DNA from: Conexibacter sp. CPCC 205762
GTDB lineage: Bacteria > Actinomycetota > Thermoleophilia > Solirubrobacterales > Solirubrobacteraceae
DNA: 64,000 nt
Assembly (NCBI RefSeq): GCF_030646155.1
Contig: NZ_JAUTDN010000003.1
Span: 1-64,000, forward strand
Direction of reading: 5' to 3'
Both the position numbers and the translations under genes were made by a program. The notes beneath the pieces were generated by a model. That model saw nothing but the letters and a program-made list of their open reading frames with translations. It was not told where the DNA came from and made no database searches. Positions within the stretch are counted from its first letter, which is position 1; the number at the start of each line of letters is the position of its first letter. This document shows positions 49,764 to 53,983 of this stretch, one piece after another.

Positions 49764-50984
49764 ATGGCAGACGTCGATTCGCTCCAGAACTCCGAGGAGG
49801 CCGTGGCGCAGCAGCGTCAGGAGGCCGCCGAGAAGGCCCGCGAGGCCGCGCTCGAGCAGCTGCGCAAGGCGCCGCTCGCCGACACCGCCCTGAAGACGCA
49901 GCGCCGCGTCGAGGCGAAGCTCGACCAGGTCAGAAACTCGACCAACATGCGCGAGGGCCCGCTGCCGGAGGTCGAGGAGCTGGCGATCTCGCTGCTGGAG
50001 ACCGGTCTGCTGCACCCGCCGCTGGTGCGCGAGACCGGCGACGAGGCGATCCCCTACGAGCTGGTCGCCGGCTTCCGCCGCGTCGCCGCGATGCGGCTCG
50101 TCGACGAGGCCGAGGGCGAGCCGCGCACGTGGGCCTTCGACCTGCGCGTCGGGATGAGCCGGCGCGAGGCGCTGACGCTCCAGTTCGCCGAGAACTTCCA
50201 CCAGAGAAAGCCCGAGCCGATCATGTTCGCCCGCGCCGTGCGGCAGATCATGATCGAGGACCCGGCGCTGACGGCGGCCGAGGTCTCGCGCCTCACCGGC
50301 GCCCCGGCCGACTGGACGCGCGGCGCGCTGAAGCTGCTCGACCTGCCGGCGATCGCCGACCGCGTCGAGGCCGGCGACCTCGCCTTCACCGCCGCCGACA
50401 TGGTCCGGCGCGCGATCTCGACCGGCCGCGTGGACGAGAGAGAGGGCGTCGAGCTGGCGCAGAAGGCCGCCGACGGCGAGATCACGACCGGCGAGCTGAG
50501 AAGAGCGGTCGGCTACGTGCCGCCGAAGCCGGAGGGCTACGACGAGCTGGCGAGCGAGCTCGACAGAGCCCGCTGGGAGGCGAGACAGAACGGCGCCGCC
50601 GACCGCGCCGCCGACGCCGACCAGCGCGACTGGGAGTCCGGCGGCCACGTGCAGGATCCCGGCTACGGCGCGAACGCGAGCGGCGCCGGCCCGGTCGACC
50701 CGGCCGCCGGCGGCGCCCGCCCCGACACGAGCGGCGGCCAGAGCGCGGAGGAGGCCGAGCGGCGCGCCTCCGAGCTGGACGCCTACCTGCTCGGCCGCGT
50801 CCTCAACGACCTCGCCGACGACTACCGCGAGCTGCTCGGCATCGTCGACGACGGCGAGTCGTTCCAGTACGCCTTCGCGCTGCGGCCGTACGAGCGCGTC
50901 GCGGCGCTGCGGATGCTGGCGAGAAAGCTGCTCGAGTCCGACCCCAACCCGCCGGCCGAGCTGAGCCACCTGGCGCGGGCCTGA
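49764..50984 (+). CDS. Orphan ParB-like nuclease/CTPase-domain protein
   Basis: A 406-residue protein with a Glu/Ala-rich N-terminal helix, then a ParB/Srx-type domain: LAISLLETGLLHPPLVRE, YELVAGFRRVAAMRL, LTLQFAENFHQRKPEPIMFA, and a helix-turn-helix region LTAAEVSRLTGAPADWTRGAL. A Gly/Ala-rich linker and a C-terminal helical domain follow. Chromosomal ParB normally sits with ParA; no parA is here, so this is a paralogue, perhaps a transcription factor or nucleoid protein. Arg codons include AGA in 8 of about 42 positions. Confidence 0.85.
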   Translation: MADVDSLQNSEEAVAQQRQEAAEKAREAALEQLRKAPLADTALKTQRRVEAKLDQVRNSTNMREGPLPEVEELAISLLETGLLHPPLVRETGDEAIPYELVAGFRRVAAMRLVDEAEGEPRTWAFDLRVGMSRREALTLQFAENFHQRKPEPIMFARAVRQIMIEDPALTAAEVSRLTGAPADWTRGALKLLDLPAIADRVEAGDLAFTAADMVRRAISTGRVDEREGVELAQKAADGEITTGELRRAVGYVPPKPEGYDELASELDRARWEARQNGAADRAADADQRDWESGGHVQDPGYGANASGAGPVDPAAGGARPDTSGGQSAEEAERRASELDAYLLGRVLNDLADDYRELLGIVDDGESFQYAFALRPYERVAALRMLARKLLESDPNPPAELSHLARA

Positions 50985-50998
50985 GCCCGGCCGCCGAC

Positions 50999-51025
50999 GC
51001 TGCCGCGGCTCAGCGCCGCGGCAGC
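50999..51025. terminator. Bidirectional hairpin terminator
   Basis: GCTGCCGCGG and CCGCGGCAGC form a perfect 10-base stem with a 7-base loop between the convergent parB-like and SecD-domain genes, overlapping the end of the latter. There is no T-run. Confidence 0.6.
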
Positions 51026-52563
51026 AGCTCGATCAGCCTCGGTATCGGCCCGCTCTGCAGCAGCAGCGCCAGCTGATCCGCGTCGCCGGCCGTGGAGCCG
51101 CCCCGGATCGCCAGCCCGTTCTGACCGTCGATCCCGTCCGGGAGCCGGTTCGGATCGATCGACGGCACCGACAGCAGGCGGCCGCCGAGCACGAGCGCGA
51201 TGTGCTGCGCGACCTCCGCGGAGCTCGCCCCCGGCAGCGCCAGCGACTGCCCGCGCTGCGAGACGGCGCGCGTGAGGTCGTGCAGCCGCTGCTGCCCGCG
51301 CGCGTCGAAGCGCACCGTCACCTGCGGCTGCCCGCTGGTCGAGCCGACCTCGGCGCCGCGCACGTCGGCGCCGGTCAAGGCCGCCTCCCCGCGCAGCACG
51401 AAGAAGCGCGCGCGGGGGTCGTTGCGCGCGAGCGGCGCACTGCGACCGCCGGGGAGCGCCTGGACGACGCGCGCGCCGTCGCCGACGCCGCGGGCGAGCC
51501 CTCTCGCCGTCAGCAGCGTCACCCTGCTGCCCTCGCCGGCGAGCCGGCTGACGCGCTCCGCCGCTCTCGATCCCGCCGCCTGCGCCGCCGCGACCGTGCG
51601 GCCGTCCGCCAGCAGCACGCTCTGCTCCCAGTCGAGCAGCTCCAGCCGCCCCGGCGCCAGCAGCGCGCGCACCGCGACCGCGTCGGGGCTGCTGCCCGCG
51701 ACGTCGACGGTGAGGCGGCTGCCGAAGCCCATCGCCTGCACGCTCGCGCCGGGGAGCGCGAGCCGCCGCAGCGCGCTCTCGGCGGCTGCGACCGCCCCGT
51801 CGCCCGTGGCGGTCGCGTAGGAGTACCGCCGCCAGCCCGGCTGACGCTCCGGCGCGAAGGCGCCGATCTCCAGCCGCTGCGGCTGCGAGCGCCCGCCGCC
51901 GATCGACGTCGAGCCGTTCGGCCGCGGGTCGATCTCGACCTCGCTGGCGCCCGCCAGCGGCAGCTCGACGGCGAACGGGCTGACCGCGACCGCGGTCGCC
52001 GCGTCGGCCCCGAGTCTGACGCTGTCGGAGAGCGGGCCGACGGTCGTCCGCGGCCCTCCGCCGCCGGGCGCGAGCACGTGGATCGCCACCTGCACGCCCT
52101 CCGCCGCGAGCCCGCTGACGACGACGCGGTCGCCGGACCGCTGCGCCTGGACCCAGGCGGCGCCGGAGCCGAGCTGCTCGCTCAGCGCCGGCAGCGTGCC
52201 GCAGATCGTGTTGCCCTCGGGGCTGCGGTCGTCGTCGCGATGGGCGCAGACGACCCGCCCGCCGAGCAGGCTCAGGAGCGCCGGGCCGTGCTCGGCGACG
52301 TGCCTGCCGAAGCGCTCTCTCGCCGGCTGCGACGGCGCGTCGCCGCCCGCGAACGGCTGCGCGGCGACGACCGCCGTCACGAGCAGCAGCGTCAGCGCCG
52401 CGCCGGCCGCGCGCTGGAGCTGCCGGCGTCGGCGCCGGCGGCGCTGCGCCTGGGCCGCGTCGATCAGGCGCGCGCCGATGCGCGCGAGCGGATCGGCGGA
52501 GCCGTGGCTGTCGGAGCCGTGGCCGTCGGTGCCGGCCGTGGTCGGGTCGTCCCGCTCGCTCAT
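51010..52563 (-). CDS. Membrane protein coupled to ECF sigma factor, with SecD-P1-like outer domain
   Basis: A 517-residue protein: cytoplasmic N-terminal about 70 residues (DPLARIGARLIDAAQAQRRR), one span (AAGAALTLLLVTAVVAAQPF), then a large outer part. The last 270 residues match the P1 ectodomain of SecD block for block: LLAPGRLELLDWEQSVLL, VTVRFDARGQQRLHDLTR, QHIALVLGGRLLSVPSIDP, LPDGIDGQNGLAIRGG and QLALLLQSGPIP. There is no multi-span SecD membrane part, so it is not a translocase. The ATG overlaps the sigma-factor stop (ATGA), the position usual for an anti-sigma factor. An anti-sigma role is inference; no ZAS zinc motif is seen. Confidence 0.8.
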   Translation of the reverse strand: MSERDDPTTAGTDGHGSDSHGSADPLARIGARLIDAAQAQRRRRRRRQLQRAAGAALTLLLVTAVVAAQPFAGGDAPSQPARERFGRHVAEHGPALLSLLGGRVVCAHRDDDRSPEGNTICGTLPALSEQLGSGAAWVQAQRSGDRVVVSGLAAEGVQVAIHVLAPGGGGPRTTVGPLSDSVRLGADAATAVAVSPFAVELPLAGASEVEIDPRPNGSTSIGGGRSQPQRLEIGAFAPERQPGWRRYSYATATGDGAVAAAESALRRLALPGASVQAMGFGSRLTVDVAGSSPDAVAVRALLAPGRLELLDWEQSVLLADGRTVAAAQAAGSRAAERVSRLAGEGSRVTLLTARGLARGVGDGARVVQALPGGRSAPLARNDPRARFFVLRGEAALTGADVRGAEVGSTSGQPQVTVRFDARGQQRLHDLTRAVSQRGQSLALPGASSAEVAQHIALVLGGRLLSVPSIDPNRLPDGIDGQNGLAIRGGSTAGDADQLALLLQSGPIPRLIELLPRR

Positions 52564-53138
52564 CGCATCCGCTCCTCTCTCAACGCCGCCATCCGCAGGC
52601 CGACGCGGCGCAGCCCGCGGTGGACCCGCGCGCGCACGTTCTCCTCGCTCGTCGCGAAGCGCTCCGCCAGCTCGTCGTAGCCGCGCTCGTCGACGACCCG
52701 CGCCAGCACCGCCGCGCGCTGCGTCTCCGGCAGGTCGCCGACGAGCCTCAGCGCGAGCGCCCCGTCCGCCTCGGCGCTCAGCCGCCGCTCGACGCTCGTC
52801 AGCTCGTCCTCGCTGAACGCCAGCTCGCTGATCCCGAGCCGCTGCAGCGCCGCGTCGGCGGTGCGCGCCCGCCGCTGCGAGTCGATCAGCTTGTGGTTCG
52901 CGATCCCGAACAGCCACGCCCGCACCGGCGCCTCGCCCGCGCGGTAGCGGTGGGCCGACTGCAGCGCCGCGGCGAACACCTCGGCGGTCAGGTCGAGCGC
53001 CTGCTCGGTCGAGCGCGTGCGCGAGCGCAGGTAGGCGAGCACCGCCGGCGCGTGCCGCTCATAGACCGGCCCGAAGGCGGCCGGGTCGCGGCGCGTGGCG
53101 GCCAGCAGCCGCTCGTCGGATTGGTCGTCTCGCCCCAT
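52560..53138 (-). CDS. ECF-type RNA polymerase sigma factor
   Basis: A 192-residue sigma-70 family ECF factor. Region 2 reads FGPVYERHAPAVLAYLRSR and RAWLFGIANHKLIDSQRRAR; region 4 reads LPETQRAAVLARVVDERGY and YDELAERFATSEENVRARVH. It directs RNA polymerase to stress promoters and is coupled by ATGA to the SecD-domain membrane protein, its likely partner. A GGTTCC/GGAACC inverted repeat lies just before its ATG. Confidence 0.93.
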   Translation of the reverse strand: MGRDDQSDERLLAATRRDPAAFGPVYERHAPAVLAYLRSRTRSTEQALDLTAEVFAAALQSAHRYRAGEAPVRAWLFGIANHKLIDSQRRARTADAALQRLGISELAFSEDELTSVERRLSAEADGALALRLVGDLPETQRAAVLARVVDERGYDELAERFATSEENVRARVHRGLRRVGLRMAALREERMR

Positions 53139-53144
53139 CTACAC

Positions 53145-53161
53145 GGTTCCTCGCAGGAACC
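53145..53161. promoter_or_regulatory. Inverted repeat before ECF sigma gene
   Basis: GGTTCC-TCGCA-GGAACC lies 7 bases before the sigma gene ATG. GGAAC is a common -35 core of ECF promoters, so this may be an autoregulated ECF promoter (GGAACC followed by CGTGTAG on the minus strand) or a repressor site. Confidence 0.4.
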
Positions 53162-53185
53162 CGGCCCCCTGTGACAGCGAACCTC

Positions 53186-53191
53186 TACGCT
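53186..53191 (+). promoter_or_regulatory. -10 box of hypothetical gene (leaderless)
   Basis: TACGCT lies 6 bases before GTG 53198 and decides this start over a GTG at 53171. Confidence 0.4.
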
Positions 53192-53197
53192 GACAGA

Positions 53198-53983
53198 GTG
53201 AGCGACGACGAGCAGCCGGGCCGCGCGATCGTGCGGCTGGCGGCCGAGACGGTCGCGCCGGTCGGCGACGTCGTGACGGTGCTGCGCGCGAAGGCGGCGG
53301 CGCTGGAGCGGCTCGCCGCCGAGGTCGAGCAGCTGCGGGACGAGGGCTGGCGGACCGAGGGGGCGGTCGGGATCGCCTTCTCGCTCGGCGTCGACGGCGT
53401 CCACGTCGAGCGCGACGTCAGCGGCTTCGACGAGCTGGAGCGGCTCGCGCGCACGCTCGCGCCGGGGACCGTGCTGCACTGGCACCGCCACGACCGCTCG
53501 TGGCGCTCGGGCGGCTGGATCGCCGGGCTGCCGGCCGTCCTGCAACTGGGCGAGACCGACGACCTGCCGGTGATCGTGCAGTCGACCCGCTCCGGCCGCC
53601 AGACCCGCTGCGAGGACCAGCAGGAGCTGGTCGCGGCGATCCGCCTGCATCTGACCGAGGTGCGCGACGCGTTCGAGGCCGACCCGCTGCTGCGCTCGCG
53701 CGCGCAGCCGGTGCGCGACCAGCTCGCGGCGCTCGACGCCGGCGAGGCGCCGCAGGTCTTCTACCGCTTCGAGGGCTCGCCGGAGGCGGAGGACCCGCTC
53801 ACCGCCGCGCACATGATCCACGTCACGCCGGCCGCGCTGGCGAGCTGGGAGGGCTTCCAGGACGGGGTCTCCGGCGAGCCGCTGTACGAGGGCGACACGC
53901 GCCTGGAGGGGCTGACCGGGATCGCCTTCCGCGACGGCTACCGCCGTGGCGAGCAGGCGGCGCCTCAGGCGCCGCTGGCGTAG
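53198..53983 (+). CDS. Hypothetical protein
   Basis: A 261-residue soluble protein with no motif I recognise. An N-terminal coiled-coil-like helix (VTVLRAKAAALERLAAEVEQ) is followed by mixed alpha/beta sequence: VLHWHRHDRSWRSGG, LAALDAGEAPQVFYRFEGS, GLTGIAFRDGYRRGEQ. It is divergent from the ECF sigma gene and could be a target of it. Its end overlaps the convergent pucR gene by 19 bases. Confidence 0.7.
   Translation: MSDDEQPGRAIVRLAAETVAPVGDVVTVLRAKAAALERLAAEVEQLRDEGWRTEGAVGIAFSLGVDGVHVERDVSGFDELERLARTLAPGTVLHWHRHDRSWRSGGWIAGLPAVLQLGETDDLPVIVQSTRSGRQTRCEDQQELVAAIRLHLTEVRDAFEADPLLRSRAQPVRDQLAALDAGEAPQVFYRFEGSPEAEDPLTAAHMIHVTPAALASWEGFQDGVSGEPLYEGDTRLEGLTGIAFRDGYRRGEQAAPQAPLA
53957..53975. 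terminator. Bidirectional hairpin between hypothetical gene and pucR
   Basis: GCGGCGCC-TCA-GGCGCCGC is a perfect 8-base stem with a 3-base loop, lying inside the 3' ends of both convergent genes. Confidence 0.5.

Follow-up and report, generated by a model that had tools for sequence, protein, structure and literature searches.

In extracytoplasmic function (ECF) systems, a one-span protein that is co-transcribed with the sigma factor and has its N-terminal tail in the cytosol usually tethers and inhibits this sigma factor (PMC8103513, PMC7406223). The anti-sigma domains of class I average ~101 residues, and domains shorter than 50 amino acids may belong to class II (PMC7406223). Another ECF group, ECF41, uses a -35 element of TGTCACA with a spacer of ~16 bp (PMC3426412). 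As to protein export, the P1 domain of SecD is considered to act on precursor proteins where they leave SecYEG (PMC9508474), and a known monitor of Sec activity, VemP of Vibrio, works by translation arrest and controls secD2/F2 (PMC11470409). Here we describe a locus within a 64,000-nucleotide stretch of the soil bacterium Conexibacter sp. CPCC 205762 (contig NZ_JAUTDN010000003.1, positions 1 to 64,000; hereafter, the window), in which the gene of an ECF sigma factor is coupled to that of a one-span membrane protein (the partner) bearing a SecD P1 ectodomain. We think that the two genes probably form an autoregulated operon of the sigma/anti-sigma type, which has taken up P1 as its sensor.

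In its general plan, the locus resembles the class I pairs RpoE-RseA and SigW-RsiW, i.e., a translationally coupled two-gene operon with an autoregulated promoter (here a candidate one), whose one-span partner has a cytosolic N-terminus and an outer sensor. It differs from them in that no class I anti-sigma domain was found in the partner and its ectodomain is SecD P1. A short cytosolic segment is shared with the class II pair CnrY-CnrH, and CnrH is among the solved-structure relatives of the window sigma factor; CnrY, however, has two helices, which wrap sigma2 and sigma4, whereas the window tail has one conserved helix before its arginines, with no detectable sequence link between the two. 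With SecD and SecDF (Thermus thermophilus, 3aqo and 5yhf) the partner shares the whole P1 fold, base and head, but not the membrane domain, the proton relay or SecF; moreover, its single span lies N-terminal of P1, and its P1 is fast evolving and carried by a sigma operon. The CU044_5270 family (NCBIfam NF038083) also consists of single-span proteins: three of the sigma partners at greater distance align with it almost end to end, scoring below the cut-off, and a few others match weakly in tail and span, while the window protein, with its unrelated ectodomain, has no match at E≤1. The candidate promoter has the same -35 element as ECF41 promoters, yet its -10 element is CGAGG rather than CGTC, and the window sigma factor has a membrane partner and no C-terminal regulatory extension, whereas ECF41 sigma factors have no membrane partner. 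The initial annotation of this DNA had stated that anti-sigma factors with such an ectodomain were not known to it and, in line with this, no description of a SecD-like anti-sigma ectodomain or of Thermoleophilia ECF partners was found in the searchable literature, in which P1 is thus an apparently undescribed variation on the theme of ECF sigma factors and their membrane regulators.

A sigma factor gene coupled to a one-span SecD P1 protein

The sigma factor comprises 192 amino acids, in which Pfam recognises sigma2 and sigma4 only, with no sigma1.1, no sigma3 and no C-terminal extension. It scores 67.1 bits against the NCBIfam model sigma70-ECF (cut-off 42.9), and its orthologues in two other Conexibacter are 79.8% and 70.4% identical to it. 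The partner gene begins within the sigma stop codon, giving a 4-bp overlap. Both members of the pair proposed by the initial annotation, an ECF sigma factor and a one-span SecD P1 protein, are in place, with their domains matched by Pfam.

Several comparisons establish the identity of the ectodomain. The Pfam family PF22599 (SecDF_P1_head) matches the partner with E=4.6e-15 (56 bits; cut-off 27), and the SecDF of the same genome (a 994-amino-acid frame, G000:C1) is 54% identical to the partner's P1 head over 141 amino acids (E=4e-40). The sequence blocks behind the proposed block-for-block likeness to SecD P1 (LDWE, GQQRLHDL and others) indeed align in order with Conexibacter SecDF, and the nearest sequences to the partner's P1 are Thermoleophilia SecDFs. 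An AlphaFold2 model, whose input alignment held seven sequences, three of them SecD rows, had a mean predicted local distance difference test score (pLDDT) of 69.9, with P1 mostly at 70-90. Its PDB matches at E≤1e-3 were SecDF only, and VIA-align superposed the ectodomain on T. thermophilus P1 (3aqo chain C, 222 amino acids; Table 1), bearing out the expectation that it would align structurally with SecD. A model built from partner sequences alone was of low confidence (pLDDT 50), yet its top eight structure matches were SecDF. The likeness to SecD P1 is far above chance, and the ectodomain contains a true, whole P1 domain.

A survey of related genomes, as the initial annotation had suggested, found the gene pair conserved and the P1 pairing recurring in a second genus. 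Orthologous pairs with the same overlap are present in Conexibacter sp. CPCC 206217 and C. arvalis DSM 23288 (with the window genome, G000, G004 and G005), and a Solirubrobacterales metagenome-assembled genome (G002) carries the partner at a contig end, with the sigma gene off the contig. Across 232 genomes of the order, full-length partner matches are confined to four of the seven that belong to the genus; at the empty site of G003, which lacks the pair, a ParB-like gene and a gene for 270 amino acids adjoin. The second form, composed of tail, span and P1 in 294 or 318 amino acids, was found in two genomes (G205 and G206) of genus g13 of the same family, where the partner gene overlaps by 4 bp the gene of a more distant ECF sigma factor (40-42% identity). 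No further P1 pairs came up in a sample of 396 genomes from across the phylum or among the matches listed for 399 genomes of the class; scoring there covered the best candidates of each genome, so that distant cases may escape. A scan of genome contigs with a single protein as query gave no relative, and relatives were found once an alignment served as query. Stand-alone SecD P1 proteins with apparent lipoprotein signals and no adjoining sigma gene were also seen in three genomes of the order (Table 1); P1 has been reused more than once as an exported module.

By hydropathy, the partner has a cytosolic tail of ~52 amino acids, one span and an ectodomain of ~446 amino acids, in a predicted topology; the cytoplasmic N-terminal part put forward in the initial annotation is thus present, but not at the 70 residues given there. 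The conserved part of the tail is limited to about residues 24-47, which are among the most conserved stretches in the Conexibacter partners. Some 170 residues separate the span from P1, part of which form a beta-sandwich in the model (residues 130-235, no Pfam match). The sandwich would not fit into the shorter partners of C. arvalis and g13, which points to P1 as the common, putatively sensing part. The frame stops at residue 517, right after P1, with the six-span SecD membrane domain and its conserved charged residues absent, and the partner scores 38.6 against the SecD model (cut-off 244.4). As read from the sequence, a one-span protein coupled to a sigma gene and with its N-terminal tail in the cytosol would have the organisation of a membrane anti-sigma factor.

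Upstream of the sigma gene lies a conserved candidate ECF promoter, TGTCACA-N14-TGCGAGG, from which the transcript would be nearly leaderless. Of 34 sigma homologues, 32 have GTCACA upstream (dinucleotide shuffles would give 1.2), and behind this common -35-like element the -10 elements vary (CGAGG, CAAGG, CGACTA and others), which suggests that it is mainly the -10 that determines promoter specificity within the sigma family. The strict pattern TGTCACA-N13-15-TGCGARG has a single occurrence in each of G000, G004 and G005, in every case ahead of the window-type sigma gene, and none in three congeners lacking the pair; the pattern was derived from the same orthologue sequences, so that recovering them is no test and its rarity elsewhere is the informative part. 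This single genome-wide match, together with its absence from the pair-less congeners, fits autoregulation of the operon through the candidate promoter and a narrow strict regulon. A perfect 17-bp palindrome, GGTTCCTCGCAGGAACC (53146-53162), overlaps the candidate -10 element just before the sigma start codon. On visual inspection, neither G004 nor G005 retains it, and it was rejected as a conserved element.

Table 1. Coordinates of the sigma-partner locus and of stand-alone P1 genes
Feature	Position	Strand	Details
ECF sigma factor gene	52560-53138	-	192 aa; Pfam Sigma70_r2 E=5.2e-15, Sigma70_r4_2 E=2e-11
One-span membrane partner with SecD P1 ectodomain	51010-52563	-	517 aa; ATGA overlap with sigma gene
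Conserved cytosolic tail motif, residues 24-47 (DPLARIGARLIDAAQAQRRRRRRR)	52423-52494	-	profile from non-P1 partners only, E 0.005
Transmembrane span, residues ~53-71	52351-52407	-	hydropathy
Membrane-proximal beta-sandwich, residues ~130-235, Ig/FN3-like (weak assignment)	51859-52176	-	Z 6-8.6
SecD P1 domain (base and head), residues 243-515	51019-51837	-	3aqo_C, Z 13.9, root mean square deviation 3.4, 201 residues aligned
P1 head subdomain (PF22599), residues 384-508	51040-51414	-	Pfam
Candidate autoregulated ECF promoter, TGTCACA-N14-TGCGAGG	53149-53176	-	ends 10 nt before sigma ATG
Stand-alone SecD P1 lipoprotein-like genes	L036:4734-5792, L037:4465-5550, L139:2063-3049	- (all)	

A constant tail with exchangeable ectodomains

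The window sigma factor is one of a large family present in the order. The gene that follows the sigma gene encodes a one-span protein in all 30 homologues with enough flanking sequence, and in 24 of these the two genes share the 4-bp overlap of the window. Among 31 partners, the ectodomains fall into 19 groups unrelated by BLAST, including LytR_C, BNR repeats and CU044_5270-like kinds (L063/L067/L068), while the tails follow the approximate pattern L-x-x-L-E-x-E-L-x-x-A-A-x-R, then arginines. We built a profile from 18 tails of partners without P1 and used it in a blind search of seven genomes, with the training loci excluded. Matches starting early in the profile lay directly behind a sigma gene in 27 of 37 cases (chance fraction ~2e-4, i.e., 0.02%), and those starting late, which cover the arginine and span part only, lay beside one in 0 of 25. 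Both the window protein (Table 1) and the C. arvalis partner (E=8e-4) were recovered. Since most of the early-starting matches of the tail profile sit behind sigma genes, the P1 protein is placed within a family of constant tail and variable ectodomain, the window locus being one case of a larger modular sigma-partner family; by this comparison, the tail, and not P1, is the sigma-linked part. A tail common to ~30 sigma-linked membrane proteins with unrelated ectodomains is as expected for a piece that contacts the sigma factor, a role that is supported indirectly.

Within this family, some Solirubrobacterales genomes (G018, G025 and G009) have at least 10 copies of the window-type sigma factor, with 18 sigma matches in G018, and many of the copies are followed by a tail-protein gene, a marked lineage-specific expansion. 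Most members of the one-span family downstream of the sigma matches L041-L070 are unannotated. Two partners, L059:2033-2230 (+) and L060:2037-2294 (+), of 65 and 85 amino acids, consist of almost nothing besides tail and span, and may be either natural truncations or frameshifts.

The sigma factors of the Conexibacter pairs stay 70-80% identical. As for P1, the window protein is on average 52% identical to Conexibacter SecD in the head and 24% in the base (the G002 head reaches 58%), and the better-kept head may be regarded as sensor-like decay. Seventeen residues are invariant across six partners and the Conexibacter SecDs, and a SecD segment of ~60 amino acids is absent from every partner except that of G002. 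Recent gene conversion from SecDF was considered and rejected, as the window genome holds no exact shared DNA stretch of at least 14 bp. In the P1 tree, the six partners grouped weakly (64/100), outside the Conexibacter SecDs, and their long branches blur both the source of P1 and how often it was captured. The sigma tree groups the P1-linked sigma factors of Conexibacter with siblings whose partners carry different ectodomains (96/93), and the g13 sigma factors fall elsewhere. For the P1-linked sigma factors of the two genera, the starred branches of the sigma tree require two changes, and the two sets were joined in 0 of 200 bootstraps; a single clade was not rejected by the approximately unbiased test (p 0.22). 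Two independent captures of P1 are likely, and the simplest reading of the trees would be that sigma factor and tail stay together as a stable unit on which ectodomains are exchanged, with P1 probably acquired twice.

A possible export sensor and its rivals

In the mechanism that we propose, the ECF sigma factor would be made together with a single-pass membrane protein, by which it is most probably kept at the membrane in an inactive state. This partner would be modular, with a short constant cytosolic tail (one helix, then arginines), one span and a swappable outer sensor, the latter being, in the Conexibacter lineage, a SecD P1 presumably copied from a Thermoleophilia-type SecDF without the transmembrane proton channel. 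The ligand of the P1 head would most plausibly be either a polypeptide, exported or unfolded, or a component of the Sec translocon; upon its binding, the partner would change shape or be cut, freeing the sigma factor to transcribe its own operon along with further targets that may be few. We infer the binding and inhibition of the sigma factor, the ligand and the relay of the signal from this arrangement. Because SecD P1 is considered to act on precursors at the SecYEG exit, the ligands that first suggest themselves are chains that are exported or unfolded, or else the translocon, a guess that we judge more probably wrong than right. That P1 directly senses export, responding to exported or unfolded chains that are free or to Sec translocons that stand idle, as part of a so far undescribed family of sigma-tethering receptors with one minimal tail and freely swapped outer domains, is possible, if doubtful.

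Several observations weigh against this proposal. The terminal branches of P1 measure 0.9-2.3 in the partners versus ~0.1-0.2 in the Conexibacter SecDs; the partner P1 thus evolves far faster than that of SecDF, making conservation of the ligand doubtful, and the same ligand as SecDF is not required. The window tail matches no anti-sigma domain profile in Pfam or NCBIfam, and searches of PDB and Pfam with it gave weak, unrelated matches only, with no anti-sigma chain found in PDB. With ~25 conserved residues, it is shorter than class I anti-sigma domains. Finally, no other gene with the strict promoter was found.

The main rival to direct export sensing keeps the anti-sigma-type partner, but takes P1 to be a scaffold reused for an unrelated envelope ligand, with no tie to protein export. 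Elsewhere, LolA-like or lysozyme-binding ectodomains bind envelope ligands, and such reuse would agree with the fast divergence of the P1 copies, the many unrelated ectodomains of sister partners, the loss of the ~60-residue segment in all partners but G002 and the small set of 17 invariant residues. However, it is the chain-handling head that both the window protein and the G002 partner preferentially retain, and P1 has been joined to such a tail in two genera; we regard this explanation as conceivable, though tentative. Alternatively, the partner could be an effector on the secretion side, an extra P1 arm on the Sec translocon, with the sigma factor only controlling its expression. P1 is a working part of SecDF, and the operon's own promoter is the sole strict match in the genome, both of which would suit such an arm; yet the ~30 sigma relatives are all followed by this tail on unrelated ectodomains, more as expected of a piece that contacts the sigma factor than of a part of the translocon, and the membrane domain that drives SecDF is absent. 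We consider an effector unlikely.

Very improbable, in our view, is a decayed SecD duplicate, a P1 fragment kept by chance behind a sigma gene with no sensing role. Its very fast evolution and its patchy presence within the genus, where three of seven genomes have no partner, are what decay might produce, but the frames are intact in six genomes (294-567 amino acids), residues of the fold are conserved (D311-W312-E313, R437-G438, G477 and G505), the ATGA or GTGA coupling, the promoter and the tail are conserved, and the P1 pairing recurs in a second genus.

Should P1 indeed sense export for the sigma factor, a regulator with a piece of the export machine as its antenna would be a way of measuring secretion different from VemP. 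The locus also exposes a Thermoleophilia family of ECF partners in which a constant tail of ~25 residues is combined with 19 or more unrelated ectodomains. Should this tail turn out to be a minimal anti-sigma domain, the family would represent a simple receptor format with an exchangeable outer part, offering testable functions for dozens of unannotated genes.

Flanking genes

The gene for 270 amino acids mentioned above (53171-53983, +), divergent from the sigma gene, has no Pfam family and is a constant neighbour of the pair, present also at the empty site of G003. On the other side, 49764-50984 (+) encodes a conserved protein with a weak ParB_N match, which in the C. arvalis genome is located elsewhere.
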